Shown piece after piece: positions 25,690 to 59,149 of a stretch of 64,000 nucleotides of DNA. The translations under genes and the position numbers were made by a program. Source of the DNA: Watersipora subatra. Its lineage: Eukaryota > Bryozoa > Gymnolaemata > Cheilostomatida > Watersiporidae. The notes beneath the pieces were generated by a model. The model was not told the origin of the DNA and made no database searches. It saw only the letters and a program-made list of their open reading frames with translations. The stretch's first letter is position 1, and the number at the start of each line of letters is the position of its first letter. The stretch covers positions 1,736,001-1,800,000 of the forward strand of contig NC_088711.1 in the NCBI RefSeq assembly GCF_963576615.1, written 5' to 3'.

Positions 25690-26640
25690 CTTTTTATTCC
25701 ACTTTATTTTGTTCCATTGTAAAAAGGGCAAACTGGAGGATCTAGCCAAGATTTTTATTGTCATTCAGGCCTCTGAATGAAATGCAATGGCTGTTGCTGT
25801 ACCAAGCCGTAAATTCTGCTCTAAGGAACTACATTTTGGTTGAAGAACACTGCGAGAGAACCTCATTAGAAAACAGAGATCCAGTAGCAAATTACTGCTA
25901 TAAAAAGCTGACTTGTTCAAGGTTGTTCTCACTGCTCTAAGAAATATTTTGGAGGAGCTGGCGCAACTCAGTCTTCTTTCAAAGATGCAACCAACTGTGA
26001 TGGAAGGGCACTGCTTTGCAAGAGCAAAGATTAAAATGTAGCATCATCATTACTTGTAGAAAAAGGAAGATGTTTGATAGGGTGACCGTGTCAAAGAGGT
26101 GATGAGGACCTCATCAACTAATGGCAGAAATACTGATGAGATTATTCGTAAGCTCTGATCGCTTTGATGCTCCTTTCTCAGATGATGAATTAAAGGAGTG
26201 CTCTGCATTCACATCTAAACATTCAGCTCAGACATTGGTTTTGAATATGGATCAGTAGACACTGATACGCTGGCAGAGGTATGAGGCCATTCTTCACTGC
26301 CCACGTTCTGTGGAGGCCATTAAAAACGAATATGATGACTTAAAATATATATTCAACCAGAAACTCAAACAACGGTCCATCAGGACATTTTCAAATGTGG
26401 TAGCTGTAGCTGCTATGATGTGAAGAGCTAAAAAAGATCTTACCGCTTGTGGGTGTTTGTGCTACACTTCAAACATCCAGTGCAATTTGGGAAAGAGGTT
26501 TCAGTTTGATTAATCAAAACAGAGTCAAGAAATCATCTTGAAGCGGCCCATCACTTTTGGATGAGTTGATACGCATAAATTCCAAGCTAGAAGCAGAAGG
26601 GGTCATTAACCTGAATAAAGTCTACAACTGCTGAAGAAAT
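25690..26640 (+). pseudogene. Decayed hAT-family transposase (C-terminal half)
   Basis: Translated in shifting plus-strand frames, this region shows pieces of a hAT transposase of the zf862/KIAA1586-like group: LNEMQWLLLYQAVNSALRNY and DPVANYCYKKL near 25758-25935, ILEELAQLSLLSKM near 25950, RYEAILHCPRSVEAI near 26280, and the dimerisation-domain hallmark IWERGFSLINQNRVKK near 26490. Several frame changes and an in-frame TGA (about 26538) just after the last motif show that it is dead. The N-terminal half and the terminal repeats were not found. It is not related to the BED ORF at 8550 in any way I can show. Confidence 0.7.
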
Positions 26641-27227
26641 TAAGACAGATAATAAAAATTATATAAAATTCAAGTACCTGGTCAGATTTGTGTTTAGTCT
26701 AGTTTCATTCATTCAGAATTTTAATAATGCACCAATGCATAAATCACTAATGCATAAATCTAGTAATATTGCTAGATTATTATGAGTTGTAGAAATTCAA
26801 ATAAAAACTGTAAAATACATTTTGCAGACAGAGTTAAAGAAATGTGTACTGTATTACATGCTTATGTTACGACACACATTTCATTGTGCAAAGTGTGGAT
26901 TTTACAGTATCAAGAAAATTTGATCTTTGAAAGGTATAAATGTATTAAAGCATAACTTCTGATCAGACCAGAGCATGACTCCGGCATACAACATGCATAC
27001 TACAGTACATAACTACATAGTACCACAGTACTAGCTCTAAAAAACAAGATTTTAATATTTTTCATTGTAGGCAGGCTAAATCATGAGGCTGATATTAAAA
27101 CTAATCTAATGGAAATAACTGTTGTAATCCGATTTTTTTAACGATGTAAATTGTCATAATCTCAGATTTTAGGTTTGTGTGTATGCTCAAACACATGGCA
27201 AACTAGGTAGAATGTTGGTTGAGGCTG

Positions 27228-27392
27228 AATCTATGTCGAGGCTGACTCTATGTTCAGGGTGACTCCATGTTCAGGATGACTCTATGTTCAGGGTAACTTT
27301 ATGTTCAGGGTGACTCTATGTTAAGGTAACTCTATGTTCAGAGTGACTCTATGTTCAGGGTGATTCTATGTTCAGGGTGACTCTATGTTCAG
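27228..27392. repeat. 19-bp tandem repeat, about 8 copies
   Basis: The unit TGTTCAGGGTGACTCTATG repeats with small deletions. Confidence 0.9.
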
Positions 27393-27891
27393 GGTATACA
27401 TTGTTCAATTAAAACATTGTCACACTAATGCTCTGAAAGTAGGGAATATGATTCCGGAGCGGTTTGTCACTGAAATAAATTTTCACAACCACAAGTCTAC
27501 GCACTTGGCCTAAACTATTGCGGAACCGACAGCCAACTTTTATGTTGATTAATATACTTGCAAAATTGTTTGCAATTCAGCGCATAGAAACCAACAATCA
27601 CACTGTTGCTCATATTTATACGTTGTAATGTTTTAGAACATGGTATGTGAATGTTAACACTGATAAATTGCTTTTACTGATCGGAATTCTCCAGTTTTGC
27701 TATTAAATACCGTAATTCAAGTCTATTATGCTATGTTGCTTTTGTTGCAAGTTTGGCATATATATGATATATGCCTAAGGTCGATCTGGTAATTTCTCTA
27801 AACATTTCAAAAGTTTGCAAAATATTTATTTTTAATAGAATGTGTTTAAATAATATCACACAAGAATTTTCCTTTTATTCCTTCTCTAGAA

Positions 27892-28043
27892 ATAAGGAAA
27901 CAGCCCTATCAGTCGTATCTTCACTCTATAAATGTTCACGTATATGTACTGTTGTTGAGGATGCTGAAGAGGGCAAAGTGACGTTTAAGGTCGCTGCTGT
28001 ACACAGAGGCACTCATGAAAATCAACTTCAGATTTTATTGTAG
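27892..28043 (+). CDS. Possible last exon of an unidentified plus-strand gene
   Basis: The acceptor TATTCCTTCTCTAG ends at 27891. The frame NKETALSVVSSLYKCSRICT continues through EDAEEGKVTFKVAAVHRG to a TAG at 28041-28043. AATAAA follows immediately (28045-28050), with a second copy near 28058. The composition is richer in Ala, Val, Glu and Gly than in neighbouring chance ORFs. I do not recognise the family and found no upstream exon. The exon ends about 80 bases before the 32-bp array. Confidence 0.4.
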
Positions 28044-28126
28044 AATAAATTAGGAAATAAAATGGCTGTTGCTTGTTGAAGGCTGTGAAAGTCTCTTGTC
28101 TCACACCTAAAACAATTTCGTCTTTG

Positions 28127-31100
28127 TTTATTCTGATGTTTTAGATTATGGATATTCGTTTATTCTGGTGTTTTAGATTATGGATATTCGTTTATCCTGG
28201 TGTTTTAGATTATGGATATTCTTTTATTATGGTGTTTTAGATTATGGATATTTGTTTATTCTGGTGTTTTAGATTATGGATATTCATTTATTATGGTGTT
28301 TTAGATTATGGATATTCATTTATTCTGGTGTTTTAGATTATGGATATTCGTTTATCCTGGTGTTTTAGATTATGGATATTCTTTTATTATGGTGTTTAAG
28401 ATTATGGATATTCGTTTATTCTGGTGTTTTAGATTATGGATATTCATTTATTATGGTGTTTTAGATTATGGATATTCGTTTATTCTGGTGTTTTAGATTA
28501 TGGATATTCTTTTATTACGGTGTTTTAGTTGATGTATATTCTTTTATTATGGTGTTTTAGATTATGGATATTCATTTATTATGGTGTTTTAGATTATGGA
28601 TATTCATTTATTCTGGTGTTTTAGATTATGGATATTCTTTTATTATGGTGTTTTAGATTATGGATATTCGTTTATTCTGGTGTTTTAGATTATGGATATT
28701 CGTTTATTCTGGTGTTTTAGATTATGGATATTCATTTATTATGGTGTTTTAGATTATGGATATTCATTTATTCTGGTGTTTTAGATTATGGATATTCTTT
28801 TATTACGGTGTTTTAGTTTATGTATATTCTTTTATTATGGTGTTTTAGATTATGGATATTCTTTTATTATGGTGTTTTAGATTATGGATATTCATTTATT
28901 ATGGTGTTTTAGATTATGGATATTCTTTTATTATGGTGCTTTGGATTATGGATATTCTTTTATTATGGTGTTTTAGATTATGGATATTCATTTATTCTGG
29001 TGTTTTAGATTATGGATATTCATTTATTCTGGTGTTTTAGATTATGGATATTCATTTATTATGGTGTTTTAGATTATGGATATTCTTTTATTATGGTGCT
29101 TTGGATTATGGATATTCTTTTATTATGGTGTTTTAGATTATGGATATTCATTTATTATGGTGTTTTAGATTATGGATATTCTTTTATTATGGTGTTTTAG
29201 ATTATGGATATTCTTTTATTATGGTGTTTTAGATTATGGATATTCGTTTATCCTGGTGTTTTAGATTATGGATATTCTTTTATTACGGTGTTTTAGTTTA
29301 TGTATATTCTTTTATTATGGTGTTTTAGATTATGGATATTCTTTTATTATGGTGTTTTAGATTATGGATATTCATTTATTCTGGTGTTTTAGATTATGGA
29401 TATTCTTTTATTATGGTGTTTTAGATTATGGATATTCTTTTATTATGGTGCTTTGGATTATGGATATTCTTTTATTATGGTGTTTTAGATTATGGATATT
29501 CATTTATTCTGGTGTTTTAGATTATGGATATTCATTTATTCTGGTGTTTTAGATTATGGATATTCTTTTATTATGGTGTTTTAGATTATGGATATTCTTT
29601 TATTATGGTACTTTGGATTATGGATATTCTTTTATTATGGTGTTTTAGATTATGGATATTCATTTATTATGGTGTTTTAGATTATGGATATTCTTTTATT
29701 ATGGTGTTTTAGATTATTGATATTCTTTTATTATGGTGCTTTGGATTATGGATATTCTTTTATTATGGTGCTTTGGATTATGGATATTATTTTATTATGG
29801 TGTTTTAGATTATGGATATTCGTTTATTCAGGTGTTTTAGATTATGGATATTCATTTATTATGGTGTTTTAGATTATGGATATTCATTTATTCTGGTGTT
29901 TTAGATTATGGATATTCTTTTATTATGGTGTTTTAGATTATGGATATTCGTTTATTCTGGTGTTTTAGATTATGGATATTCATTTATTATGGTGTTTTAG
30001 ATTATGGATATTCTTTTATTATGGTGTTTTAGATTATGGATATTCTTTTATTATGGTGCTTTGGATTATGGATATTCTTTTATTATGGTGTTTTAGATTA
30101 TGGATATTCATTTATTCTGGTGTTTTAGATTATGGATATTCATTTATTCTGGTGTTTTAGATTATGGATATTCATTTATTATGGTGTTTTAGATTATGGA
30201 TATTCTTTTATTATGGTGCTTTGGATTATGGATATTCTTTTATTATGGTGTTTTAGATTATGGATATTCATTTATTATGGTGTTTTAGATTATGGATATT
30301 CTTTTATTATGGTGTTTTAGATTATGGATATTCTTTTATTATGGTGTTTTAGATTATGGATATTCGTTTATCCTGGTGTTTTAGATTATGGATATTCTTT
30401 TATTACGGTGTTTTAGTTTATGTATATTCTTTTATTATGGTGTTTTAGATTATGGATATTCTTTTATTATGGTGTTTTAGATTATGGATATTCATTTATT
30501 CTAGTGTTTTAGATTATGGATATTCTTTTATTATGGTGTTTTAGATTATGGATATTCTTTTATTATGGTGCTTTGGATTATGGATATTCTTTTATTATGG
30601 TGTTTTAGATTATGGATATTCATTTATTCTGGTGTTTTAGATTATGGATATTCATTTATTCTGGTGTTTTAGATTATGGATATTCATTTATTATGGTGTT
30701 TTAGATTATGGATATTCTTTTATTATGGTACTTTGGATTATGGATATTCTTTTATTATGGTGTTTTAGATTATGGATATTCATTTATTATGGTGTTTTAG
30801 ATTATGGATATTCTTTTATTATGGTGTTTTAGATTATTGATATTCTTTTATTATGGTGCTTTGGATTATGGATATTCTTTTATTATGGTGCTTTGGATTA
30901 TGGATATTCTTTTATTATGGTGTTTTAGATTATGGATATTCTTTTATTATGGTGCTTTGGTTTATGGATATTCTTTTATTATGGTGTTTTAGATTATGGA
31001 TATTCATTTATTATGGTGTTTTAGATTATGGATATTCTTTTATTATGGTGTTTTAGATTATGGATATTCATTTATTCTGGTGTTTTAGATTATGGATATT

Positions 31101-33600
31101 CATTTATTCTGGTGTTTTAGATTATGGATATTCATTTATTATGGTGTTTTAGATTATGGATATTCTTTTATTATGGTGCTTTGGATTATGGATATTCATT
31201 TATTATGGTGTTTTAGATTATGGATATTCATTTATTCTGGTGTTTTAGATTATGGATATTCTTTTATTACGGTGTTTTAGTTTATGTATATTCTTTTATT
31301 ATGGTGTTTTAGATTATGGATATTCTTTTATTATGGTGTTTTAGATTATGGATATTCATTTATTATGGTGTTTTAGATTATGGATATTCTTTTATTATGG
31401 TGCTTTGGATTATGGATATTCTTTTATTATGGTGTTTTAGATTATGGATATTCATTTATTCTGGTGTTTTAGATTATGGATATTCATTTATTCTGGTGTT
31501 TTAGATTATGGATATTCATTTATTATGGTGTTTTAGATTATGGATATTCTTTTATTATGGTGCTTTGGATTATGGATATTCTTTTATTATGGTGTTTTAG
31601 ATTATGGATATTCATTTATTATGGTGTTTTAGATTATGGATATTCTTTTATTATGGTGTTTTAGATTATGGATATTCTTTTATTATGGTGTTTTAGATTA
31701 TGGATATTCGTTTATCCTGGTGTTTTAGATTATGGATATTCTTTTATTACGGTGTTTTAGTTTATGTATATTCTTTTATTATGGTGTTTTAGATTATGGA
31801 TATTCTTTTATTATGGTGTTTTAGATTATGGATATTCATTTATTCTGGTGTTTTAGATTATGGATATTCTTTTATTATGGTGTTTTAGATTATGGATATT
31901 CTTTTATTATGGTGCTTTGGATTATGGATATTCTTTTATTATGGTGTTTTAGATTATGGATATTCATTTATTCTGGTGTTTTAGATTATGGATATTCATT
32001 TATTCTGGTGTTTTAGATTATGGATATTCATTTATTATGGTGTTTTAGATTATGGATATTCTTTTATTATGGTACTTTGGATTATGGATATTCTTTTATT
32101 ATGGTGTTTTAGATTATGGATATTCATTTATTATGGTGTTTTAGATTATGGATATTCTTTTATTATGGTGTTTTAGATTATTGATATTCTTTTATTATGG
32201 TGCTTTGGATTATGGATATTCTTTTATTATGGTGCTTTGGATTATGGATATTCTTTTATTATGGTGTTTTAGATTATGGATATTCGTTTATTCTGGTGTT
32301 TTAGATTATGGATATTCATTTATTATGGTGTTTTAGATTATGGATATTCATTTATTCTGGTGTTTTAGATTATGGATATTCTTTTATTATGGTGTTTTAG
32401 ATTATGGATATTCGTTTATTCTGGTGTTTTAGATTATGGATATTCTTTTATTATGGTGTTTTAGATTATGGATATTCTTTTATTATGGTGCTTTGGATTA
32501 TGGATATTCTTTTATTATGGTGTTTTAGATTATGGATATTCATTTATTCTGGTGTTTTAGATTATGGATATTCATTTATTCTGGTGTTTTAGATTATGGA
32601 TATTCATTTATTATGGTGTTTTAGATTATGGATATTCTTTTATTATGGTACTTTGGATTATGGATATTCTTTTATTATGGTGTTTTAGATTATGGATATT
32701 CATTTATTATGGTGTTTTAGATTATGGATATTCTTTTATTATGGTGTTTTAGATTATTGATATTCTTTTATTATGGTGCTTTGGATTATGGATATTCTTT
32801 TATTATGGTGCTTTGGATTATGGATATTCTTTTATTATGGTGTTTTAGATTATGGATATTCTTTTATTATGGTGCTTTGGTTTATGGATATTCTTTTATT
32901 ATGGTGTTTTAGATTATGGATATTCATTTATTATGGTGTTTTAGATTATGGATATTCTTTTATTATGGTGTTTTAGATTATGGATATTCATTTATTCTGG
33001 TGTTTTAGATTATGGATATTCATTTATTCTGGTGTTTTAGATTATGGATATTCATTTATTATGGTGTTTTAGATTATGGATATTCTTTTATTATGGTGCT
33101 TTGGATTATGGATATTCTTTTATTATGGTGTTTTAGATTATGGATATTCATTTATTATGGTGTTTTAGATTATGGATATTCTTTTATTATGGTGTTTTAG
33201 ATTATGGATATTCTTTTATTATGGTGCTTTGGATTATGGATATTCTTTTATTATGGTGCTTTGGATTATGGATATTCTGTTATTATGGTGTTGTAGATTA
33301 TGGATATTCTTTTATTATGGTGCTTTGGATTATGGATATTCTTTTATTATGGTGTTTTAGATTATGGATATTCATTTATTATGGTGTTTTAGATTATGGA
33401 TATTCTTTTATTATGGTGTTTTAGATTATGGATATTCTTTTATTATGGTGTTTTAGATTATGGATATTCTTTTATTATGGTGCTTTGGATTATGGATATT
33501 CTTTTATTATGGTGTTTTAGATTATGTATATTCTTTTATTATGGTGCTTTGGATTATGGATATTCTTTTATTCTGGTGTTTTAGATTATGGATATTCTTT
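28127..33600 (+). repeat. 32-bp minisatellite, about 171 copies, with acceptor and ATG in each unit
   Basis: The unit is TTTATTMTGGTGTTTTAG followed by ATTATGGATATTCN. It runs for about 5.47 kb without interruption and enters the first coding exon of the sphingosine kinase gene. Unit variants include TTTTAGATT (most), CTTTGGATT (AG lost), TTTTAGTTTATG and TTTTAGATTATTG (ATG lost), and CATTTATT, CTTTTATT or CGTTTATT in the spacer. The order of variants repeats over long distances: about 30504-31197 is identical to 32424-33117, an offset of 1,920 bp (60 units), and another shift is 1,120 bp (35 units). This means whole blocks were duplicated. The 62-94 aa open stretches inside are by-products of the repeat. 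Confidence 0.95.
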
Positions 33601-33957
33601 CGGAACTACATAAACTCACATTCACAAATTTACAAACTAAGACTGTTTGCAAACTGCAGCTGAGAGATAGCCAACTCTGTATCATTGGAGACGATGACAA
33701 TGAACAGAAGGCTAAGTTTGTCAGTTATGAAGATATCGTCGGTGTAAAGGTTAATAAGCGGGCAGAAATGGGAGACTTTCAGTATTTCATAGACATGTAT
33801 GCTTATCCTTCTTTTAAAACTCTTCTCAGCTCTAAATTCACTCGAAAAAGGCTTCACCTTAGCTTAACACTAAATGAGCAAGATGGTTTCACATCCCACC
33901 AGGTTCTGTTACTTCTTCGAGAGGCGATTCTGGGCAAGATGTCTCCGCAGTGTGATG
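33585..33957 (+). CDS. SPHK: SPHK exon 1 (N-terminal domain)
   Basis: The acceptor GGTGTTTTAG ends at 33584 and belongs to the last 32-bp repeat unit. The first Met codon is at 33588 and an in-frame TAG lies just upstream, inside the intron. The donor GTAAGG starts at 33958, leaving phase 1. An upstream non-coding or coding exon is implied by the acceptor but was not found. Confidence 0.88.
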
Positions 33958-36900
33958 GTAAGGGTCCCATAGATTTATTTGCTATAGGATTGCTAGAGTG
34001 TTACTTGTGATAGTACTGCTTGCTATAGAGTTATATGTTGTAGAGTTGCTTTCTATAAAACTACTTGTCATAGAGCTATTTGGTGACGATATTTTGTTAT
34101 AGAACTGCAATATAAATTTGCTATAGGGTTACATGCTTTAGAAGTGCTGTTATAAGGTTGTTATAAAGTTGTTAGCTAATAATAGTATTGCTACCCGCAA
34201 AACTCTTGGCTATAGTGTTATTTGCTATGGAGTTAGTCGCTATAGAGTTATTCGCTATAGAGTTATTCGCTATAGAGTTATTCGCTATAGATTTATTCGT
34301 TATAGAGTTATTCGCTATAGATTTATTCGCTACATAGTTATTCGCTATAGAGTTATTCGCTATAGAGTTATTCGCTATGGAAATGCTCATTACAGCATTA
34401 TGTTTCACATATAAAGTTATTTACTATATACCCGCTTGCTATCAAGTTACTTGCAATAAAACAACTCACTACAGAGTTAGTCGCTATAAAGCTCGCCGTA
34501 TAGAGTTATTGTCTATGGAACTGCTGGCTCTAGAGTTATTGGCTATAGGTCTATTTGTCATAGAGTTCCTAGCTTTAAGTTATAACAAGTAATCAATAGC
34601 TAGCCTATAACTGTTAGTTGTCATAGTTATTCAAGAGTGCTGTATGGTACATACTAATATATATCAGGGGATTCTTTTAAACACCGATTTGACTCAACAC
34701 TCAACACTAATGATTTATTTTGTATACAGATATGGTCTTCCGCTCTAATAAACCAATCCTTGTGCTTCTCAACCCAGTCGCTGGAAAAGGTTTTGCAAAA
34801 AAGCTATTTGATGAAAAAATTCTTCCTATGTTGAAAGAAGCAGAAATGGTCTACCAGTTAATAGTTACTGGTGAGTATTGACTTGTTCAGGACAGGCAGG
34901 CTTTTGCACTTTTGATTATCTTTTTTTTGTTAAAAGTCGGTAACACACTTGTAAAAAAGTAAGCATGGAGCAAGAGGAGGTCATTTTCCTAGTTGTAATG
35001 GGGGAACAACTCTTTGTTTGTCGTGTTGATTGAGTAACTGAGAGATTCAAACGCAATGTCACGCATCGTTTGATGATTTAATATCTGCGTGCCAGAGACC
35101 AGAAACCATATGGATAAAAACAATATTGTACTCTACAGTATATTTTGGAAAGTAGTTTCCAATTATAAGAATGAGAATAAATAATAATAATCTATATACA
35201 TGTATATCCAAGCGTCTGTCTGTCGTCATTCGTATGTCCAGTTAATACAATAAAGTTTTAGGGATGAAAATTCCACTTCGCACTGGTTTTGAACTCGGAA
35301 GCCGGAATTACACCAGTTAAAACACAAGCGCTAAAAGTGCCTGCGACAATACTGTTGATTCCTACATGCTTGAGAGATCATGATGCTTGATGTACCGATT
35401 ATAATCACACTTATAAGCACAAGCCGGCTTCAGGCATGGCTCTTATTATAGTAAAGATTCAGACTAGCTTAAGTTACTCAAATTCATTGGGTGATTATTT
35501 TATTACCTGTGCAACGCCGGGCATTCACCTAGCACAAGAATAAATACTATTTGGTGACTACATACAATAACCACAGATCAATAACACAAAATTAAATTAT
35601 TGATTATCTGAATTTTTTTTACTATTCACTTCATAGTGTGGCTGCCAACGTGTTGGACCACTTATTTCTTATGGCATACGTTGTTCAACAAGCGTGGTCA
35701 TCCCTTTACAGCTTTGCTTGTCAATGGTTACAGAACGTAACGGACACGGCATGGAGATAGCCCGCACCATAGATTTGACAGAGTTGTGCGGCCTTGTTAT
35801 TGTGTCCGGCGATGGCCTGCTGCATGAGGTATTACTAGGGGTTTGGTTTACATTAGTACTAATCTGCTGAACCTCTTGTCATAAAAGCAGCGTCTATATT
35901 GGCAGCTGGTATGGGAAAGGAAGAGACATTTTTTCATGTATGCCTCAACTTGTTTTCACATTGAAAAGCCATTTACTGCGTATCTGCCATTTAGACAATG
36001 CTCCATAGCATGCTAGCTAAATAGGTGTAGTAGCATGGTAGCTAGGTGTATGTGTGGGTAGTGCAGCATGCTAGCTCTATATATATATAGATATATATAA
36101 GAATTCTATAATCCGAGTTATGGTATGAAAATACATCGAACTGAACAAAAATTGGCTAGTTTCCAATTTCTTTACTCGCGTATGTATACATATATATATA
36201 CTAGCTGCATACCCGTCAACGGGGTCAGATTCTTGTACAGCAAGAGGTTTATTGAGAGTTGTCTTTCATACTGTAAAACAACGCCAACTATGCAGTTACA
36301 TCTCCCTCTCTCCGTCTCTCCCCTCTCTCTCCCTCTTTCTCTCTCTCTCTCCCCCCTCTCCTCTTCACTCTCCCTCTCTCTCTCTCCTTCTCTCCCTCTT
36401 TCCCCTCTCTCCCTCTCTCCGTCTCTCCCCTCTCTCTCCCTCCCTCTTCCCCCTCTCTCTCTCCCCCCCCCCCTCTTCTCCTCGCTCTTCCTCTCTCTCT
36501 CCCCTTCTCTCTCTCTCCCTCTCTCCCCCCCCCCCTCTCCTCCTCGCTCTCTCTTTCTCTCTCCCTCTCTCTCTCTCCCTTAGTTCAACGCAACACATGC
36601 GGATAGACAACATTTTTGGTTTTTCTGTCGGGCATATGAAGAAACAGTTTTCGGCGTGTGCCTACTTTTGAGCAGGCGACGTATAGCTGGTCATGGCTGA
36701 TGCAGGGTAACAGTAAGTCGATAGCAGCTGCTCTCTTTCTTCTCACAATAGCGTATCGCAACCCTCGGAGTACTCGTGAAAGTTCTGTAATAGTAAGTTA
36801 CAGTAGGCCTACTCAGAGCTGGAAAAAAATTAGTAACTCGGCTGCTAAAGGAAATGAACATGACCCACTATCACGAACAGCGGCAAATCCAACGTTATTA

Positions 36901-39900
36901 AGTAGTGGAGATGTGGCAATTCATAGACAATACAACATCGTATAAGAAACACTTACCTTTTTGATGTGGAAATTTAGTAGGTGAGAAATGCGTTTTTCTA
37001 GTGGCTCCAAGAAACAAACGTTTACGTGACCTTCTCGGTACACGTTGGCAGTAAATATTAATTGCATGTAAATAACTACTCATTAATTTATTTTATTTAA
37101 TGAATAGTACATTTGTATAGCTGTATAGACACCTTTGTATAGGCCGCAGAACTCAGGAAAGGTGCTTTTTAACACGGCAGAAAATTTGCCGTTTAAAAAG
37201 CGTGCTAACAGGGGATTTCGGTTAATGCGCTCGAGCGGTGAAAGAAAAACAACAGAATCGCCACACCTTTATATAAGCCGCTTGGCTCAAATCGTCAGAG
37301 AAAAGTAGCGGCTAATAGTCCATATTACGAAATTACGATATTACGAAATTACGATAATTAGTACTCATATTAATTCGGTTGGCTTTGTTCGACCGAATGG
37401 AAAAAGAAAGACCGCTCTATAATTTATTTACCGTTACTACACATATTAATTCAGTTCGCTTCGTACGACCGAAATTCGTACGACGATAAAAGAAAAGACC
37501 GCTCTATAAGGCGGACAGACAGATAGACAGATAGATAGACAGATAGACAGATAGACAGACAGACAACGATTGCCGTTTATATAGTAGATATATCTACGGG
37601 AGTAAAAAAATTGGAAACTAGCCAATTTAGGTTTAGCCATTTTTTGTTCAGTTGGTTCCTCACAAAGATGTCAGGCCATACTTTTACAATGCGATGTAGA
37701 ATCATATGCAGTCATATGGTCAATGAGGGCGCCACTTTTAAATTCTCTTCCACCATCATGCACTTTAATCATCGCAAAAGTAAAAGAACGATCTAATAGT
37801 GGGAGGGGCGTGTGATTGGCATCCAGACACCATGCACATACCCCCTACATATATTTCGTGCGCTTAGTCCCTGCACATAGGAAATCGGAAAGCACCTAGA
37901 ACATGCTTACATACTCATAAAAAACCTGTATGTCGTCGCCTTATTGTAAGAAGGTAGCCGGTGGCAAGTAACCTTTGTCATGCAGGTGCTGCAGGGACTC
38001 ATGAGCAGACCCGATGCCGAGCAAGCTATCCAGACACCTATAGGAATTCTCCCTGCAGGATCGGGCAATGCTCTGTGCTGCACTCTCAACTATGCTGCAG
38101 GGTATGTTGGTTCTATTTTGTGGTTGCTCGCGAGTGCCATCGTTGGTTCTCTCCTTAGCAGTCGGAGACTATTACTTCTATGTGTCCTTTCATAATCATC
38201 TTCTTGTCAGTCTTTCATAGTCAGCTATTAAGGGGTGTATGCTTATATTGTTTTCAATTACTATATTCATCTAGTTTCCTGTTTCATTCTTTTTATTTTA
38301 CCCTCTTTTCCTTTTTCCTCAATTATCATAGTCTATACATACTATGATCATGTCTGAGATTACCTATCAAAGTTATGACATTTTTTTTCTTCTTCTATTG
38401 CCGCAGGGAACCATTTGCGTATGACATCCTCGTGCACTCCACTTACCTACTGCTCAAGCGTACACTAAAGCCTATGGATCTTGTTCTTCTCAATACCACT
38501 GCTGGTCCCATCTACAGCTTCCTTTCCGTCACGTGGGGGCTTGTCGCTGACATTGACATTGAGAGTGAGCGTTTCAGGCGTCTCGGCATTCTTCGGTTTA
38601 AACTCGAAGCACTCTACCGAATAGCAAGTAAGTTACTCTGTTTTAAAACAATACAGCTAGCCTTACGAGTGTGAAGGCTTATGGTTATGGTGTCACATGA
38701 CTTACAAGTGTGAAGGCTTCTGGTTATGGTGTCACATGACTTACGAGTGTGAGGGCTTATGGTTATGGTGTCACATGACTTATTAGCGTGAGGGCTTATG
38801 GTTATGGTGTCACATGACTTACGAGTGTGAGGGCTTATGGTTATGGTGTCACATGACTTACGAGTGTGAGGGCTTATGGTTATGGTGTCACATGACTTAC
38901 TAGCGTGAGGGCTTATGGTTATGGTGTCACATGACTTACGAGTGTGAAGGCTTATGGTTATGATGCCACATGACTTACTAATGTGAGGGCTTATGGTTAT
39001 GGTGTAGTGTTGGGCCGGTATTGGGTTATCCGTTCTTACCGATACTGAGGGATTCTCGGTATCTGAGGAAACCAATCATTTTTGGTGTCAGCCAGGTATC
39101 TCTGGCCGGTTTGATATGATTGGTATTTATCCGTAAAAGCCTATCGGTATATGGTTATACGGATATCCGGAGAGATTTTTAAAACGCTTCATGACGAACG
39201 TGCCAATCTCAGCATGCATTAGCGAACAAATTCAACAAAAATTTCCACGCTTACTGTATCTACTACCGTATTATATTACGTTACATTGATAATGCCACCA
39301 GCCTCGAAGGTTTGGGAGTTCTACACAGATGAGAGGACGTATAAAGACTCTAACGGGACTGGACTCTAATTGGACTGCGTATAATTATGTGATTACATTA
39401 CCTGATTACAATATGTGATAGTAAGATTTTTTTTAACTGTTTCAGTATATTTAACAAAGAGAGCCCATTGCCATTATCTATCTGTTCTTTATTATACATA
39501 ACGTTTGTATCAATAACGATATTTTTTAATAGAATAAACAATAAAAACATCTATCATGAAAATTATATTTCCATCTTTCTTTGTTGGCTTTCTAAAACAA
39601 GGAGTCTCTTTGCCGTAACAATATACTGCTGACTAAAGAATGTTTTTTTGCACAGGCTACTTTTTGCACAACGATAAGAATTGATCGAGACAGTTATGAT
39701 TTAAAGTTTAAACAATTTAAAGACACACTGATAACCACATACCAAACAATAGTACCGACAATACCGAACTTTCTTAGTTGGCAAAGGATACCGAAGATGG
39801 TAAATACCGTGGATACCGATACCGGAAAAACCGATAAAAATGAGCAAGGATATCCGATCCGGCACTAAATTAGATACCGGCCCAACACTATTATGGTGTC

Positions 39901-47644: not shown

Positions 47645-48481
47645 TAAATGACCGCGCTAAGATCCTATGGGACTTCTACATCCGAACTGACAAGCATGTC
47701 CTAGCAAACCAACCAGATATAGTGGTGGTAGACAAGGAGAACAAGAGGGCTACTATAATATATATAGCAGTACCCAATGACTACAATATAGCCAGCAAAA
47801 AAAGAAAAGGTAGAGAAATATCTCTATCTTGGAGAAGTTTAGTAAACTGAAGACTGTAGTAAGGTGGTGACTGTAGCAAGCTGATGACTGTAATAAAGTG
47901 GTGACTGTAGCAAGCTGATAACTGTAGTAAGGCGGTGACTGTAACAAGCTGAAGACTGTAGTGAGGTCATAACTGTAGTAATGGGGTGACTGAAGCAAGC
48001 TGATGACTGTAGTGAGGTCATAACTGTAGTAATGGAGTGACTGTAGCAAACTGATGACTGTAATAAAGTGGTGACTGTAGCAAACTGAAGACTGTAGTAA
48101 GGTGGTGACTGTCACAAGCTGATGATTGTAGTAAGGCGGTGACTGTAGCAAACTGAAGACTGTAGTAAGGTGGTGACTGTAGCAAACTGAAGACTGTAGT
48201 AAGGCGGTGACTGTAGCAAACTGAAGACTGTAGTAAGGTGGTGACTGTAGCAATCTAATAACTGAAGCAAGGTGATGATTGGATGATATCAAAATGTCAC
48301 CAGATGTCAAAATGGTAAGCATACAAATTGAAAATATGGGTGTGTTATGCTCACCATTTTGACAAGTTCCTAGTCCGGAGAGACACCGAACACATATGAG
48401 TCTCAGGCACTTCTTACATCCAGCATTTATTGGCTGACCTTCATGCTCTTTACAGAATCTTGCTGGTTCCTCACTCGCCAT
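43570..48481 (-). CDS. B-box / coiled-coil / beta-propeller protein (TRIM-like without RING, 484 aa)
   Basis: Exons 48481-48355, 47353-47157, 46673-46503, 46249-46141, 44705-43992 and 43706-43570 join with matching phases (1,455 bases with the TAG at 43572-43570). Residues 10-47 form a B-box type zinc-binding domain (CKEH, then C22, C25, C30 and C33, ending NDPSHHLMSLDE). Residues 50-200 are a charged coiled coil. Residues 202-484 carry repeated blade-like segments (PTDGLIITD, GLAVVSEQLVVPNR, KILDFSTGKLI), like the NHL/WD-type propellers of TRIM-NHL and TRIM56-like proteins. Such proteins oligomerise through the coiled coil. With RING the family acts as E3 ligases; here no RING precedes the B-box, because the ATG lies only nine codons before its first Cys. 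Molecular targets cannot be read from the sequence. Confidence 0.87.
43787..43831. other. Perfect 17-bp hairpin in intron 5 of the B-box gene
   Basis: CCAATGATATACAGCCC is followed by an 11-base loop and its exact reverse complement. Partial pairing of the flanking ACTATG and CATAG extends the stem. It could be a small MITE remnant or a microRNA-type precursor; I cannot decide. Confidence 0.75.
43992..44705 (-). CDS. B-box gene exon 5 (most of the propeller)
   Basis: The acceptor ATTCTACAG ends at 44706. The 714-base exon encodes about five blade-like repeats. The donor is GTTGGT at 43991, chosen because it alone keeps the frame into exon 6; the stronger-looking GTAAAA four bases on leads to an immediate stop. 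Confidence 0.85.
45151..45904. mobile_element. Possible solo LTR in B-box gene intron 4
   Basis: The segment starts TGTAAGTCG and ends CTTTACA. It contains CATATATAAGG near 45716-45727 followed by an R-like segment, and a 10-bp hairpin (TAAAGGAAAC, five bases, GTTTCCTTTA) at its end. GC is higher than its surroundings. No clear target duplication or priming site was found, so this is tentative. Confidence 0.3.
46141..46249 (-). CDS. B-box gene exon 4 (coiled coil end)
   Basis: The acceptor TTTGTGTCAG ends at 46250 and the donor GTGAGT starts at 46140, leaving phase 1. The exon encodes CTLVEEYEVVKSEMQELANQ and then PSLEVPIINRLAAN. Confidence 0.83.
46503..46673 (-). CDS. B-box gene exon 3 (coiled coil)
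   Basis: The acceptor GACTCGCAG ends at 46674 and the donor GTAAAA starts at 46502. The 57 codons in phase 0 are rich in Glu, Lys and Leu with heptad character. Confidence 0.84.
47157..47353 (-). CDS. B-box gene exon 2
   Basis: The acceptor GATTACTAG ends at 47354 and the donor GTACGT starts at 47156. A second GT four bases on is possible, but the chosen one keeps phase 0 to exon 3. The exon completes the B-box (DPSHHLMSLDE) and begins the coiled coil. Confidence 0.84.
47581..47641. repeat. TA microsatellite
   Basis: About 60 bases of TA dinucleotides in B-box gene intron 1, next to a retroelement fragment. Confidence 0.95.
47648..47818 (+). mobile_element. Fragment of a non-LTR retrotransposon endonuclease-type region
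   Basis: The plus-strand frame reads DRAKILWDFYIRTDKHVLAN, then QPDIVVVDKENKRATII and VPNDYNIASKK. The PD...D-K arrangement with AVPND resembles the C-terminal restriction-like endonuclease region of R2/CRE-type LINE proteins. Only about 57 codons survive, bounded by the TA tract and the 34-bp minisatellite. Confidence 0.5.
47850..48268. repeat. 34-bp minisatellite in B-box gene intron 1
   Basis: The unit CTGTAGCAAACTGAAGACTG plus TAGTAAGGTGGTGA repeats about 12 times with variants. It makes a long apparent minus-strand extension of exon 1, which is not real coding. Confidence 0.9.
48355..48481 (-). CDS. B-box gene exon 1
   Basis: The ATG is at 48481 and the donor GTGAGC starts at 48354, leaving phase 1. 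The exon encodes MASEEPARFCKEHEGQPINA and the core C-x2-C, C-x2-C zinc ligands of the B-box. Confidence 0.87.
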
Positions 48482-49921: not shown

Positions 49922-50134
49922 AACACACAGCACATGGGCATACGCACACACACAGCGCACACACACAGGGTAGACACTGACACAGCACACACACACAGCG
50001 CACACACACTCAGCACGCACACACACAGCCTACACACGCACAGCAAACACACACAGCACACGCGTGCACACCCACATACAGCACACACGCGCACACAGCG
50101 TACACGCTTACACACGTGCGCGCACGCACACACA
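49922..50134. repeat. CA-rich microsatellite with GCACAC interruptions
   Basis: About 210 bases are CACACA interrupted by GCGCAC, GTACAC and GAC. Alternating purine-pyrimidine sequence of this kind favours Z-DNA. The Cys/Val-rich and His/Thr-rich ORFs here are artefacts. Confidence 0.93.
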
Positions 50135-51626: not shown

Positions 51627-52875
51627 CTAAACTCTGTTGTTTACTTCTATCGTAGCAATGTTATTGACTGAGACTGTGCTGTGGCTTGACAGTTCAACAG
51701 AGCTGTCTATAGTTCTCCTGTCTCGGTCATTTCGGGTGATGAATGAATATTGTATGCAAAAGTGCTCGCGCAACCAATCAGGAACAAGACCAGGAAAGTT
51801 TCCAAAAAACGTGCGTCGAAACTGAACATTTGTAAGCAAATATATGAATAAATTAATTCCAAAATTGAGCTGATAAAAGAAGAAGCACAGACATCTAATA
51901 CTCTTCAATAATAAAGCTTGTTTAGCATATCTAATATACGCTTGCTGCTTTTCCGCGACAGCAGATGGCCGGAGACTATCTGATCTAATCAAAAGCTCTG
52001 CCATCTGAACAACCCCTAGTGGCACCAGCAGAACCAGGAATGTTATCGAGGTAGCTATTAACATCCGAGTTATGCGCATCTGTTGCTTTTCGCCAGTTCT
52101 TCTGCTCTTCAGGGCATTCAGTGATATTTTCCTTCTAACTCTTGCTGATTTGTGGATTCGGTAGATAATCAAGGAGTTAAGTACCCCCATAGTAATTGCT
52201 GGGAACCAGGTTTTGATAGTCACATACACGTATATAATCTCTCGGAACTTCCTCCGGTTTGTGTGGCAAGCTTTGTAGCCAAACGCCGAGTCGCCCTCAA
52301 ATCCAGATATGAAAACTTTGTGCATAGAGATGAAAAGGATTGCAATGCTGACTGATACGATAGTCGCTCTGGTTCTTTTTACCGAGCACAGTCGGTGGAC
52401 CTTCAGAGGAAACTCGACAGCGATCAACCTTTCTACTGTAAAACACACAATCATCCAGACGCTCAACAGGTTGAGCAGCTCAACTAACACCGAATGGCAG
52501 AGACACAACCATTCTTTCTCTTGAAACTCCCTGTCGATCGTATCTGGATTCTGAGCTCGTAAAACACCAACCGTGAAGTTGAAAATAAGGACGGATGAGT
52601 CATAAATGGCGAGAGCAAGCAAGTACATGTAGCTGGTGTTCTGTCTCACAGTCTTTCTTGACAGTGTGATGATGATGAGGAGGTTAGAAAGCAGACCAGA
52701 ACAGACTATAGTTATGGTGCCATAATGAAGTAGAAAGCGATCAAGTTTAAGGAGTGGTGACAACTGAGCTTCGTACTCTTGCAGCTGACACGGCCAGGCT
52801 AAGGCTAACTCAGCCGTGATGTTGTGGTTCTCCATGGAAACTTCTGAATAGTCGGAGACACATGTCTTTGGTGAC
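51627..52875 (-). CDS. GPCR exon 2 (seven transmembrane segments)
   Basis: The acceptor CTTGTTGCAG ends at 52876. The frame runs from SPKTCVSDYSEVSMENHNIT to the stop at 51627. The open frame continues upstream into the intron (to 52901), but the splice site and exon 1 make that extension unlikely. Confidence 0.92.
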
Positions 52876-55800
52876 CTGCAACAAGTATATTGGGCAGACA
52901 ATTACTTAGTGACCAAAATGGTTCAACCAACACTTCCTGCACTAGCGTTCTCATGCACTTCTGCTAGTCTGTGAGTCTTTCTAGGAAATCGTGAGTGGAC
53001 TTCACCCACAAGTGGACCTCCAATTGTATACTCCTCAGATTGTAATTATATATAATTGTAATTATATATTCCTCAGAATATAAATTAATTATTTAATTAC
53101 TAGTGCAAATATTTTGCTAGCCGTCTGTGATGGCCTTCAAGATACACCATTATTAAATGCATCATACAGAAAGTTAGCCATACTAACTTTGCTGAGTTTA
53201 TTTGAGTTATTCTGTTACAATCTAATTGAGTGGCAGGTATGACTTATTAACTATAGTAATATAACCAACACTCTAGATGTTGAGTGGCAGATATGACTTA
53301 ATAACTACAGTTATATAACCAGCACTCTAGATGTTGAGTGGCAGATATGACTTATTAATTACAGTTATATAACCAACACTCTAGATGTTGAGTGGCAGAT
53401 ATGACCTATTAACTACAGTTATATAACCAACACTCTAGATGTTGAGTGGCAGATATGACCTATTAACTACAGTTATATAACTAACACTCTAGATGTTGAG
53501 TGGCAGGTATGACTTATTAACTATAGTTATATAACCAACACTTTAGATGTTGAGTGGCAGATATGACTTATTAACTACAGTTATATAACCAACACTCTAG
53601 ATGTTGAGTGGCAGATATGACTTATTAATTATAGTTATATAACCAACACTCTAGATGTTGAGTGGCAGGTATGACTTATTAACTATAGTTATATAACCAA
53701 CACTCTAGATGTTGAGTGGCAGATATGACTTATTAACTACAGTTATATAACCAACACTCTAGACAGACATGTAAAATAAACGCTGAATATAACTTAAATA
53801 AATTTAGCTTACTAAGCACATACTTGTAGGATGTTTTAGTATACATTTTAGTAAGTTTCAAACTTTGAACTAAAATTTTATCACTTATCTGTTTGCAAAT
53901 TCGTTTTTACCATAACAGATGGGCCACAGATAATGCCGAGATTGCGGCAAAATGGCATACCGAAATTTTTGTTGTTTTGTCGTAATCAGTACAACAATCG
54001 CAAAATTTTGATTACAAGATCAATTATTGTTGATATCGTATGGGGAAGACAAATTCGCCCTAGTATGGCAAGAACGGAAAAGCATTGTGTTTCATAAAGT
54101 TGGGCGAAAAATATTTTATAACAAGGGCATCGTAAACCCGTGGACGCAATGTATTAATTAATACATCATTTAGCATGAGCAATCGAGAAGAGGGTATCCG
54201 GAATATGATAGGAGCAATAGAACTCTAAGAACTTTGTAGCTCAGTGGGTAACTGTGTAGTTTGAAACTTATGGTTGCAATATCTGTGAGTTCAAATCCAG
54301 CAAAAAGTGAGCTTTACATTCCAAGATTTTAATCGCGATGATTGGACAGACAAATATCCAAACAGACAGACAACTGACAGCGACAAACTTTAAAATTTAT
54401 ATATATAACACATCTCAATACTGGAGAAAAAAAACAAATATTGAACTGTCTTTGTCTGGTACTTTGTCTGACCAAACGGAGAAAGAATGTAGATGCTATT
54501 CCTACTCGGGATAATGCAATTTTCCGCATGAAAGTCCTTAGCCTTTACCTAAAAGCCTTTACTGGAAATAAAAGTGTAACGGCACATTTGAAATTGGAAT
54601 GGCACATTTAGAAATTACAAATTAAAAACAGGTAATGGTAGCAAAAAAATTAGTTTTTAAACAATTTAAAAAACAACCAATGCAAAAGGTATTATTAGTT
54701 AATAATCAAAAGTGCACATTTAGCGTGTGCATATGGTATACAGTGTGTGATAAGAGCGATAGAATCACAAGAACAGCTTTGATTAGTGCCAAGTGCACGA
54801 TTCGAAAGTTGCTGTTTCAACCTTTGTGAGTTCAAAGCCAGCATAATGTGAGCTTTTAATTCTAAGATTTTAATAGCTATAGCCAGACATACCGAAGGAC
54901 AGACAGACAAACTTTAAAATTTATATATATGGATTATTATATGATATGTAAGCGCTTTATATTATTTTAGCATTATATTATTTTAGCTTTATATTATTTT
55001 AGCTTCATATTATTCTAGATTTATATTATTTTAGCTTTATATTGTTTTAGCTTTATATTATTTTAGCTTTATATTATTTTAGCTTTATATTATTTTAGTA
55101 TTATATTATTTTAGCATTATATTATTTTAGCTCTATATTGTTCTAGCTTTATATTATTTTAGCTTTATATTATTTTAGCTTTATATTATTCTAGCTTTAT
55201 ACTATTTTAGCATTATATTATTTTAGCTTTATATTATTTTAGTATTATATTAGCATTATATTATTTTCGCTTTATATTATTTTAGTATTATATTAACATT
55301 ATATTATTTTAGCATAATGCATATTACACTGAACTTAAATATGTTATGCTATATTATATTAAATTGTAATAAATTATAATATTGTAAAGAATATTATATT
55401 ATAGTATATTAGAGTATACTGTACGGTATTACAACATTTTCTTTTATGTATTATTATTACAATCAATATATTACATTTTATAATATTATCATAATATAAA
55501 ATTTATTCTACTCTTTACAGACATAACATTATAATACTTATATTAATAACACTGGCTGATGTTATAACTGAAAGTAATCTGAATAGATCAATAAATAGTG
55601 AAGACTAAAATAGTTGAGCAGAGTTTATATGATTTAATAGTTATATTATGTCGCACTATAGTAGAGAGTGACACTTATATAAGGTTTAATTATAATATGA
55701 AGAATATGGCCGTGGTATAAAGGCAAAAAAGCTGTGATATGACTGCAAAGTGGCTGCAAAATGGCTGCGATATTGTGATAACTTGACTGTGATATGATTG

Positions 55801-56450: not shown

Positions 56451-57939
56451 CGGCCTCGCAGCCAAAATCTCATTCAAAAATCATGCTTACACAAGCTCTG
56501 TAAACATGTAGCAGCGGTAGATGTTAACTACTATATGATGAGTGAGTTCTATAAATAGATGAATTTATATTTCACTAAAGTGAGATGTACTACGACAAGG
56601 GTAACAACAATTAGTTGACCAATTAGTCGATCCATAACAAGTTACAAATAAGTAGAAGAGATTATTTGTAAATATATATACATCCTAGCAGCTATAACAA
56701 CAAATATATGTATGTCTTTCGCATAGTTAGCGAAGGAAGACAACGAATAGTTGATGTTTTATATATGTGTTGTAGAACATTCAAGGTTATGGAACGGCTG
56801 TTGCAAGAGTACTGAGGTTAGTGTCTGTATATTTCTGTGGGTCGTACTGTCGTACACCCTCGATACAGTGATCGCACAAGTTTAGTGGTAATAAATCTCT
56901 AGCTCTAATTTATCTGTCACAATGGAGAGTTCGAATAAATGAACACGCTTGCAATATTTAATAATATTCGATTAATATAGTATAGGTACAACAGGAATAA
57001 TGATATATATTACGATATAATATAATGCAAATCTGAAGCTATGAGTAGAAAATGTAGGTAATGTCAACAAGCACGAATAGATCAATGACATGCTCCGGAA
57101 AATGTCTATGCAGTATGATTCACTTCTGTCTGCCTCACACTGGTTTCATCCTGCAGATGGTTGCAGACTGTTTCTACTCTGGGATCACTGTCTTCGTTTG
57201 CCCAAACGGCCCAGAGGGTTTGTCTCACAAATGGTTTGCACACTATAACAGTCCTACAGCATGTATAACAGTTTTACTGCGAGCTATTACTTTTAATCTT
57301 GCTAATCCTTATTTAGATTTTCTCCCCCATGAAGACCTTGACAACCTGCACTACCGAGTATTTAGGCTCTATTGATCTAAGAATACCACTTCTTTGGGTG
57401 AGCAACGAAAATCCAGCTGAGTTCAAAGCCAGTAAGGAATTCTGCTATAGCCATAGTATGTAATTTGGTAAACTTCAAACCCTCCCCATAAATGTTAGGC
57501 CTTGTATAGTATTCAAGCCAAAATGAATTCCGCTAGATGGTAGATGAAACTAGCCGATGGCAATTAGGTTCCTCTGGATGACAGTTAAGTGCAACTGGCT
57601 ACACCACAATGGTAAGGTACATTTGATTACGCAAAGACACCTAAGTTGTATCTGGCTTCATTGCCGCACTGAAATACACTTGGTTAGCTCACTGCATCAA
57701 AGTATAGTTTCTTATGGTTGACTATATAATTGATTGTGGTTTATTACAGTACACATAGACATGCTAATGTAGCTGTATTGCTCTAAAGAATGATCTGTAG
57801 TACTATAATAGTTGCTTTAACCTCACAACGCACCACCCTTGCAGCATCACCCTCACCCATAGTTATAGTTTGGTGGCACCACCACCAACTAGCTATAGTG
57901 TCTGGTGAGAGTGTAGCTCCTCCACATTCATCCAGCATC
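56451..57939. other. Non-coding spacer with one exon-like segment
   Basis: At about 57158-57219 (+) a segment after the acceptor GGTTTCATCCTGCAG reads MVADCFYSGITVFVCPNGPE and could be an exon (donor-like GTTTGT), but it has no partner. Otherwise only short ORFs and a SINE-like fragment near 57418-57470. Confidence 0.4.
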
Positions 57940-59149
57940 ACCTTCACCGGACACTAAAGTCCCTCCACCCTCACCAGGCACTATAGCTCCTCCACCCTCA
58001 CCAGGCACTATAGCTCCTTCACCCTCACCAGGCACTATAGCTCCTCCACCCTCACCAGGCACTATAGCTCATCCACCTTCGCTGGACACTATAGCTCCTC
58101 CACCCTCACCAGGAACTATAGCTCCTCCACCCTCACCAGGCACTATAGCTCCTCCACCCTCACCAGGCACTATAGCTCCTCCACCCTCACCGGGCACTAT
58201 AGCTCCTTCACCCTCACCAGGCACTATAGCTCCTCCACCCTCACCAGGCACTATAGCTCATCCACCTTCGCTGGACACTATAGCTCCTCCACCCTCACCA
58301 GGCACTATAGCTCCTCCATCCTCACCAGGCACTATAGCTCCTCCACCCTCACCAGGCACTATAGCTCCTCCACCATCACCAGGCACTATAGCTCCTCCAC
58401 CCTCACCAGGCACTATAGCTCCTCCACCCTCACCAGGCACTATAGCCCCTTTACCCTCACCGGGCACTATAGCTCCTCCCCTCACCAGGCACTATAGCTC
58501 CTCCACCCTCACCAGGCACTATAGCTCCTCCACCCTCACCAGGCACTATAGCTCCTTCACCCTCACCAGGCACTATAGCTCCTTCACCCTCACCAGGCAC
58601 TATAGCTCCTCCACCCTCACCAGACACTATAGCTCCTCCACCCTCACCAGGCACTATAGCTCCTCCACCCTCACCGGGCACTATAGCTCCTTCACCCTCA
58701 CCAGGCACTATAGCTCCTCCACCCTCACCAGGCACTATAGCTCCTCCACCCTCACCAGGCACTGTAGCTCCTCCACCCTCACCAGGCACTATAGCCCCTC
58801 CACCCTACTAGGCACTATAGCCCCTCCACCCTCACCAGGCACTATAGCTCCTCCACCCTCACCAGGCACTATAGCTCCTCCACCCTCACCAGGCACTATA
58901 GCTCCTCCACCCTCACCAGGCACTATAGCTCATCCACCATCACCAGGCACTATAGCTCCTCCACCCTCACCAGGCACTATAGCCCCTCCACCCTCACCAG
59001 GCACTATAGCCCCTCCACCCTCACCAGGCACTATAGCCCCTCCACCCTCACCAGGCACTATAGCCCCTCCACCCTCACCAGGCACTATAGCCCCTCCACC
59101 TTCACCAGGCACTATAGCCCCTCCACCCTCACCAGGCACTATAGCCCAT
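57940..59149. repeat. 27-bp minisatellite, about 45 copies, coding-capable
   Basis: The unit CTCCTCCACCCTCACCAGGC plus ACTATAG repeats over 1.2 kb. Because 27 is a multiple of 3, it stays open on both strands: APPPSPGTI on plus and PGEGGGAIV on minus, the latter in ORFs of up to 110 residues. Small deletions (about 58476, 58808) shift frame. No flanking exon or splice signal ties it to a gene. Confidence 0.95.

Follow-up and report, generated by a model that had tools for sequence, protein, structure and literature searches.

The question raised by this locus is how a gene is expressed when its first coding exon is preceded, without a gap, by more than a hundred copies of what appears to be its own start boundary. 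The locus lies in 64,000 nucleotides of DNA from the bryozoan Watersipora subatra (NCBI RefSeq assembly GCF_963576615.1, contig NC_088711.1, positions 1,736,001 to 1,800,000 of the forward strand), here called the window, to which all positions refer. It comprises a 5.5-kb array of 32-bp units and a sphingosine kinase gene whose open reading frame (ORF) begins inside the last unit. We give slightly better than an even chance to the following answer: the array goes back to the duplication of 32 bp spanning the end of a 5' intron, the resulting minisatellite was tolerated, and its last copy is still used. Its presence at the kinase start is thus probably accidental, a by-product of repeat expansion that the gene tolerates.

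The array and the kinase gene

Tandem Repeats Finder described the array at 28127-33600 as a repeat of period 32 with 171.1 copies, 93% matches and 0% indels, the copy number being that of a single assembly. When the units were cut in register, 171 full units of 22 types were obtained, and the most frequent type, TTTATTATGGTGTTTTAGATTATGGATATTCT, was present in 41 copies. With uninterrupted head-to-tail units between 10 and 100 bp long, the array is a minisatellite. The core TTTTAGATTATGGATATTC occurred 171 times at up to 3 mismatches, always within the array, compared with an average of 0.03 occurrences in shuffles (n=100). Both edges were sharp, as the 32 bases 5' of the first unit and the 32 bases 3' of the last unit each matched the consensus at 9 of 32 positions. 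No single-copy sequence was present between the array and the kinase ATG, and single-copy coding sequence followed the last unit directly.

Of the 171 units, 140 had an AG at unit positions 17-18, 167 had the core ATG and 136 had both, and 121 carried an additional ATG at positions 7-9. The density of ATG was higher in the array than in the rest of the window (53 versus 22 per kb), while that of AG was lower (26 versus 62 per kb). The spacing between AGs was 32 bases in 111 of 142 cases and 64 or 96 bases in 26. The AG preceding the last one lies 64 bases upstream because the intervening unit has lost its AG, which is not unusual given these spacings. All 31 units without AG carried T13C and A17G together, and no intermediate was found, so that the loss is most simply explained by one variant that spread. 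None of the first 25 units carried this variant, which appeared earliest in unit 26. Position 7 was C in units 1-3, in 7 of the first 10 units and in the last unit, and A in the nine units before the last, a pattern which hints that the unit form with the second ATG is derived.

An earlier sequence-only reading of this DNA had described a 5.5-kb array of 32-bp units, the last of which supplies the apparent acceptor AG (33583-33584) and the ATG (33588) of the first kinase coding exon, and had noted an ATG in most units and the loss of AG (CTTTGG) or ATG from some. The present analysis agreed on each of these points, the core ATG being missing from 4 of 171 units; the second ATG had escaped that reading. 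Its estimate of about 170 alternative acceptors upstream was too high, since the acceptor-like series exists and comprises 139 AG-bearing units.

The kinase gene is complete, its six exons (Table 1) joining without a frameshift into 569 amino acids plus stop. The protein matched the Pfam families DAGK_cat (4.6e-25) and YegS_C (8.7e-11), and its top match in PDB was sphingosine kinase 1 (5.8e-79). By its catalytic domain, its C-terminal beta-sandwich domain and its best match, the downstream gene is a sphingosine kinase. The array reaches into codons 4-5 of the intact ORF. An in-frame TAG lies two codons 5' of the ATG at 33588, the following in-frame methionine is residue 61, and the PDB matches start at residues 131-133. 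Since exon 1 by itself had no match in Pfam or PDB, the putative start at 33588 is assigned from the reading frame. The first 241 residues had no match in a viral contig collection.

Table 1. Positions of the array, the kinase exons and the associated features in the window
Feature	Positions	Strand	Basis or content
32-bp minisatellite	28127..33600	+	171 full units: TTTTAG (or CTTTGG), then ATTATGGATATTC
Last array unit, joined to kinase ORF	33567..33598	+	contains TTTTAG
AG of last unit, presumed 3' splice site	33583..33584	+	score 2.61; pyrimidine counts
Kinase exon 1 (first coding), ATG 33588	33588..33957	+	frame and donor; exon alone without Pfam or PDB match
Kinase exon 2	34730..34870	+	joined frame, Pfam
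Kinase exon 3	35734..35828	+	joined frame, Pfam
Kinase exon 4	37986..38101	+	joined frame, Pfam
Kinase exon 5	38407..38627	+	joined frame, Pfam
Kinase exon 6, includes stop codon	40985..41751	+	joined frame, Pfam
Possible terminal exon of an upstream gene	27890..28061	+	AG 27888-27889, 50-codon ORF, stop, AATAAA

Intron 1 of the kinase gene (33958-34729) consisted mostly of 15-bp GCTATAGAGTTATTC repeats, both intact and decayed. Intron 5 contained an insert at 39005-39890 with inverted ends (TAGTGTTGGGCCGGTA and its complement), which seemingly splits a 39-bp minisatellite and, judged by eye, looks like a DNA transposon.

Splice signals and upstream start codons

Donor and acceptor scores were calculated with weights that are general frequencies, untrained on this genome, and these scores are rough. 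The AG of the last unit scored highest among the 142 AGs of the array, and its score of 2.61 falls inside the range of the other five acceptors of the kinase gene (-4.89 to 7.72). Among 3614 AGs outside the array, 4.3% reached this score. Thirteen of the 17 bases before the last AG were pyrimidines, compared with 9-14 for the other five acceptors. The last AG is also peculiar in that position 7 of its unit is C and the preceding unit ends in T, a combination found in 1 of 170 neighbour pairs. Good donors were absent from the array: none of its 342 GTs reached 3 bits (best 1.71), compared with 1.49 such sites per kb in the rest of the window. The predicted RNA folding of 221 bases around the last units was no better than that of shuffles (z = 0.03).

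The consequences of acceptor choice were assessed by treating each of the 140 AG-bearing units as an acceptor and reading the resulting leader to 33588. Only the leader from the last AG was free of upstream ATGs; the remaining 139 gained between 3 and 287. The nearest alternative AG, two units upstream, would add three upstream ATGs, the frames of all of which overlap the kinase start. Splicing at the first unit would add 287, 278 of them flanked by a purine at -3 and a G at +4, and among the 17 of 140 leaders that were listed most upstream ATGs had this context. In none of the 140 leaders was the kinase extended in frame, because the TAG in the last unit closes that frame. The expectation of the sequence-only reading that upstream acceptors would yield leaders loaded with ATGs was thus borne out for all 139.

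The array was enlarged through duplication of blocks of units. Runs of identical units were 25 units long at an offset of 77, 20 at 60, 15 at 42, 15 at 35 and 13 at 18, while the longest run in 200 shuffles was 6. At the offset of 77 units the identity was 97% across 2400 bases.

The course of events that we favour would have begun with a tandem duplication of 32 bp at the border of a 5' intron and the first kinase coding exon, the duplicated unit taking in about 18 bases from the end of the intron and 14 from the beginning of the exon. Expansion on the non-coding side by block duplication would then have produced the 5.5-kb minisatellite, with the coding sequence anchoring the 3' edge and the last copy retained as acceptor and start codon. 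The 139 further AG-bearing copies would be intronic decoys. Such decoys may be tolerated because the array lacks a good 5' splice site and because the last acceptor is the one closest to the donor of the exon. If an upstream acceptor were chosen by mistake, the mRNA would carry upstream ATGs and hence yield less protein, the protein itself being unchanged.

Several points weigh against this course of events. The intron upstream of 33585 is a prediction from the DNA, and the weights misjudged some sites of the kinase gene, scoring the donor at 35829 at -0.57 and the acceptor at 40983 at -4.89. The top rank of the last AG is not stable across measures. When pyrimidines were counted in five windows, it was the sole maximum in two, which overlap almost wholly; the other three counts placed 45, 2 and 7 of the 142 AGs at or above it, the value of 2 reflecting a tie for the maximum with one other AG. 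Fast splicing should moreover favour the acceptors that are transcribed first. No strong donor was found at 26500-28126, where the best candidates scored 4.1 bits at 27326, within another minisatellite, and 3.11 bits at 27643; with these two sites a cis-spliced leader is possible.

The sequence just before the array also bears on this point. A gene encoded on the same strand as the kinase may have its terminal exon there. The AG preceding this exon, about 240 bases upstream of the array, had an acceptor score of 6.73; the ORF stops at 28041-28043, and AATAAA occurs at 28044 and 28056. The ORF at 27768-28040 had no match to any Pfam family at E up to 1, and its last 50 residues gave two chance-level matches in PDB (E 0.32 and 0.66). 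Its codon usage was middling: of 2360 open stretches of 50 codons, 19% scored as high. As this exon would end 66 bases 5' of the array, it would leave little room for a conventional leader exon, a further argument against an intron upstream of 33585. If the exon is real, the intergenic space is nearly all array, which would favour trans-splicing or initiation of transcription within the array. Either of these fits the DNA as well as cis-splicing at 33584 does.

Alternative explanations

The array may be, or contain, the promoter of the kinase gene, with transcription starting inside it near its 3' end, no splicing before 33588 and a merely incidental resemblance to acceptors. We regard this as unlikely, though we allow it a considerable share of the probability. 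The final ATG before the kinase start is at 33556, so an unspliced transcript from within the array would lack upstream ATGs only with a start in 33557-33587. Neither TATAAA nor TATATAA was present in 27928-33700, and the last AG is acceptor-like. These observations stand against the direct contact of array and ATG, the combination of a missing strong donor and a possible gene end just upstream, and the precedent of DDX3Y, for which start sites within a minisatellite are described in the available part of the source (PMC3039753), all of which speak for a promoter.

A regulatory role is a distinctly weaker candidate. The length of the array and its unit types could set the usage of upstream acceptors and hence the amount of kinase; we find this improbable. 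Each unit would then act as an extra competing acceptor that hides the start behind upstream ATGs, and natural variation in length would set the output without changing the protein. Such a length-dependent brake, to which we likewise give little credence, fits the anatomy of the locus, as all 139 upstream AGs add upstream ATGs and never alter the protein, and as the last acceptor differs from the others in its pairing of T and C. It has no support from selection. The acceptor and ATG positions of the unit were variable at 6 of 10 sites, compared with 11 of 22 other sites (Fisher p 0.71). Variable positions numbered 9 of 19 within the 19-base core and 8 of 13 outside it (Fisher p 0.49). Nothing in these tests suggests that the copies are maintained for the acceptor/ATG motif, and with 32 positions per unit their power is low. 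The loss of AG represents a single variant dispersed by block duplication, and the window is rich in arrays, four others of which pair AG with ATG at a loose cut (see below). The sequence-only reading had suggested that the array could tune translation of the kinase or might be neutral; the first suggestion found no positive support here, and the second is the better supported of the two.

Slightly less probable still is that the kinase is the second of two closely spaced genes and that a leader is trans-spliced onto its mRNA at the last unit's AG, the array filling the gap. The possible terminal exon with its two AATAAA motifs on the same strand, 66 bases before the array, would suit such an arrangement, as would an ATG 3 bases past the AG. 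This exon gave no family match, however, and its codon score is the middling one given above. A search of the window with Rfam at gathering scores returned nothing, including no spliced-leader RNA, a result that says little on the genome; ARAGORN found no tRNA.

That the length of the array, or the array as such, is an artefact of assembly seems very improbable, for although repeats of this type are described as prone to assembly error in the portion of the source available (PMC6868369) and long blocks are nearly identical, an error could alter the copy number and would hardly produce the repeat, and the 22 unit types stand in distinct orders without indels and with both flanks present. A 574-base piece of the array had no match among phage records, and a 30-base pattern from it had none in a prokaryotic contig collection, where little was expected.

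Other loci in the window and known systems

With the Tandem Repeats Finder arrays of period 10 or more considered, the window contained 34 merged arrays, which covered 21% of it and, excluding the kinase array, 13% of the remainder. Twenty arrays were at least 100 bp long. Acceptor/ATG pairing was examined on both strands in 19 of these 20 (49943-50134 was omitted), with a loose cut requiring an acceptor score of at least -1.3 and an ATG within 18 bases. In the kinase array 135 of 142 AGs were paired. Pairs were also found in the arrays at 53226 (8 hits in 10.0 copies), 63721 (5 in 9.0), 63532 (3 in 4.1) and 15862 (4 in 3.2), that is, about once per one or two copies. The pairing of AG with ATG is therefore not special to the kinase array, the peculiarity of which is its junction with a gene start, together with its size.

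A 34-bp array on the minus strand at 47840-48278 contained 36 AGs, whose acceptor scores had a median of 2.7, compared with 0.5 in the kinase array. It follows what appears by eye to be the initial coding exon of a gene on that strand and is thus probably intronic; the gene is presumably of the B-box type. Also on the minus strand, 51627-52901 encodes a rhodopsin-like G protein-coupled receptor in one long ORF (7tm_1, 1.4e-19), with an acceptor-like TTGTTGCAG 40 bases 5' of the first in-frame ATG. This placement hints at 5' introns near start codons in this genome. At 57939-59145, a 27-bp array of 44.8 copies contains an open frame of 417 residues in which PPPSPGTIA is abundant. The segment 25700-26620 gave a decayed transposase-like reading when judged by eye, which we take to be of the hAT/ZMYM kind; the only ORF of this segment that was compared with Pfam lies on the minus strand and matched no family.

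Word searches of titles and abstract beginnings in the literature returned nothing on an amplified acceptor with a start codon. If the last AG is not used, the locus is an ordinary minisatellite in or next to a promoter. If it is used, the locus would illustrate that a gene can stay functional despite a more than hundredfold amplification of its start boundary.

Known systems resemble the locus in part. The TYMS enhancer repeats (TSER) are likewise short tandem repeats immediately 5' of a start codon; they consist of a few copies of about 28 bp with an E-box, and the accessible part of the source does not mention an amplified acceptor or start codon (PMC7712088). The minisatellite MSY2 of human DDX3Y also lies close 5' of its gene and forms part of the 5' leader. 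According to the text available, it has 3 or 4 copies of about 100 bases, is located 885 bases from the ATG and contains the start site (PMC3039753), whereas here the unit itself carries the acceptor-like site and an ATG. In a potato RNA-dependent RNA polymerase gene, a tandem duplication over an intron-exon boundary is reported to have created a new intron. Like the one proposed here, that duplication spans an acceptor boundary, the copied part including the branch site, pyrimidine tract and AG. As far as the source is available, it was a single duplication whose donor came from the copied exon part, in contrast to the 171 units without a good donor found here (PMC4974935). A related mechanistic question is posed by the AG exclusion zone and the first-AG rule: when the branch point of an intron is distant, splicing is reported to take the first AG that follows it, one AG among many thus being chosen (PMC1431707). 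The introns treated in the part of that work at hand are ordinary ones, while here the AG recurs mostly at 32-base intervals. If the last AG is used, the kinase locus would offer a natural test of how the spliceosome chooses one among 140 near-identical acceptors, with a simple readout in the presence or absence of upstream ATGs.

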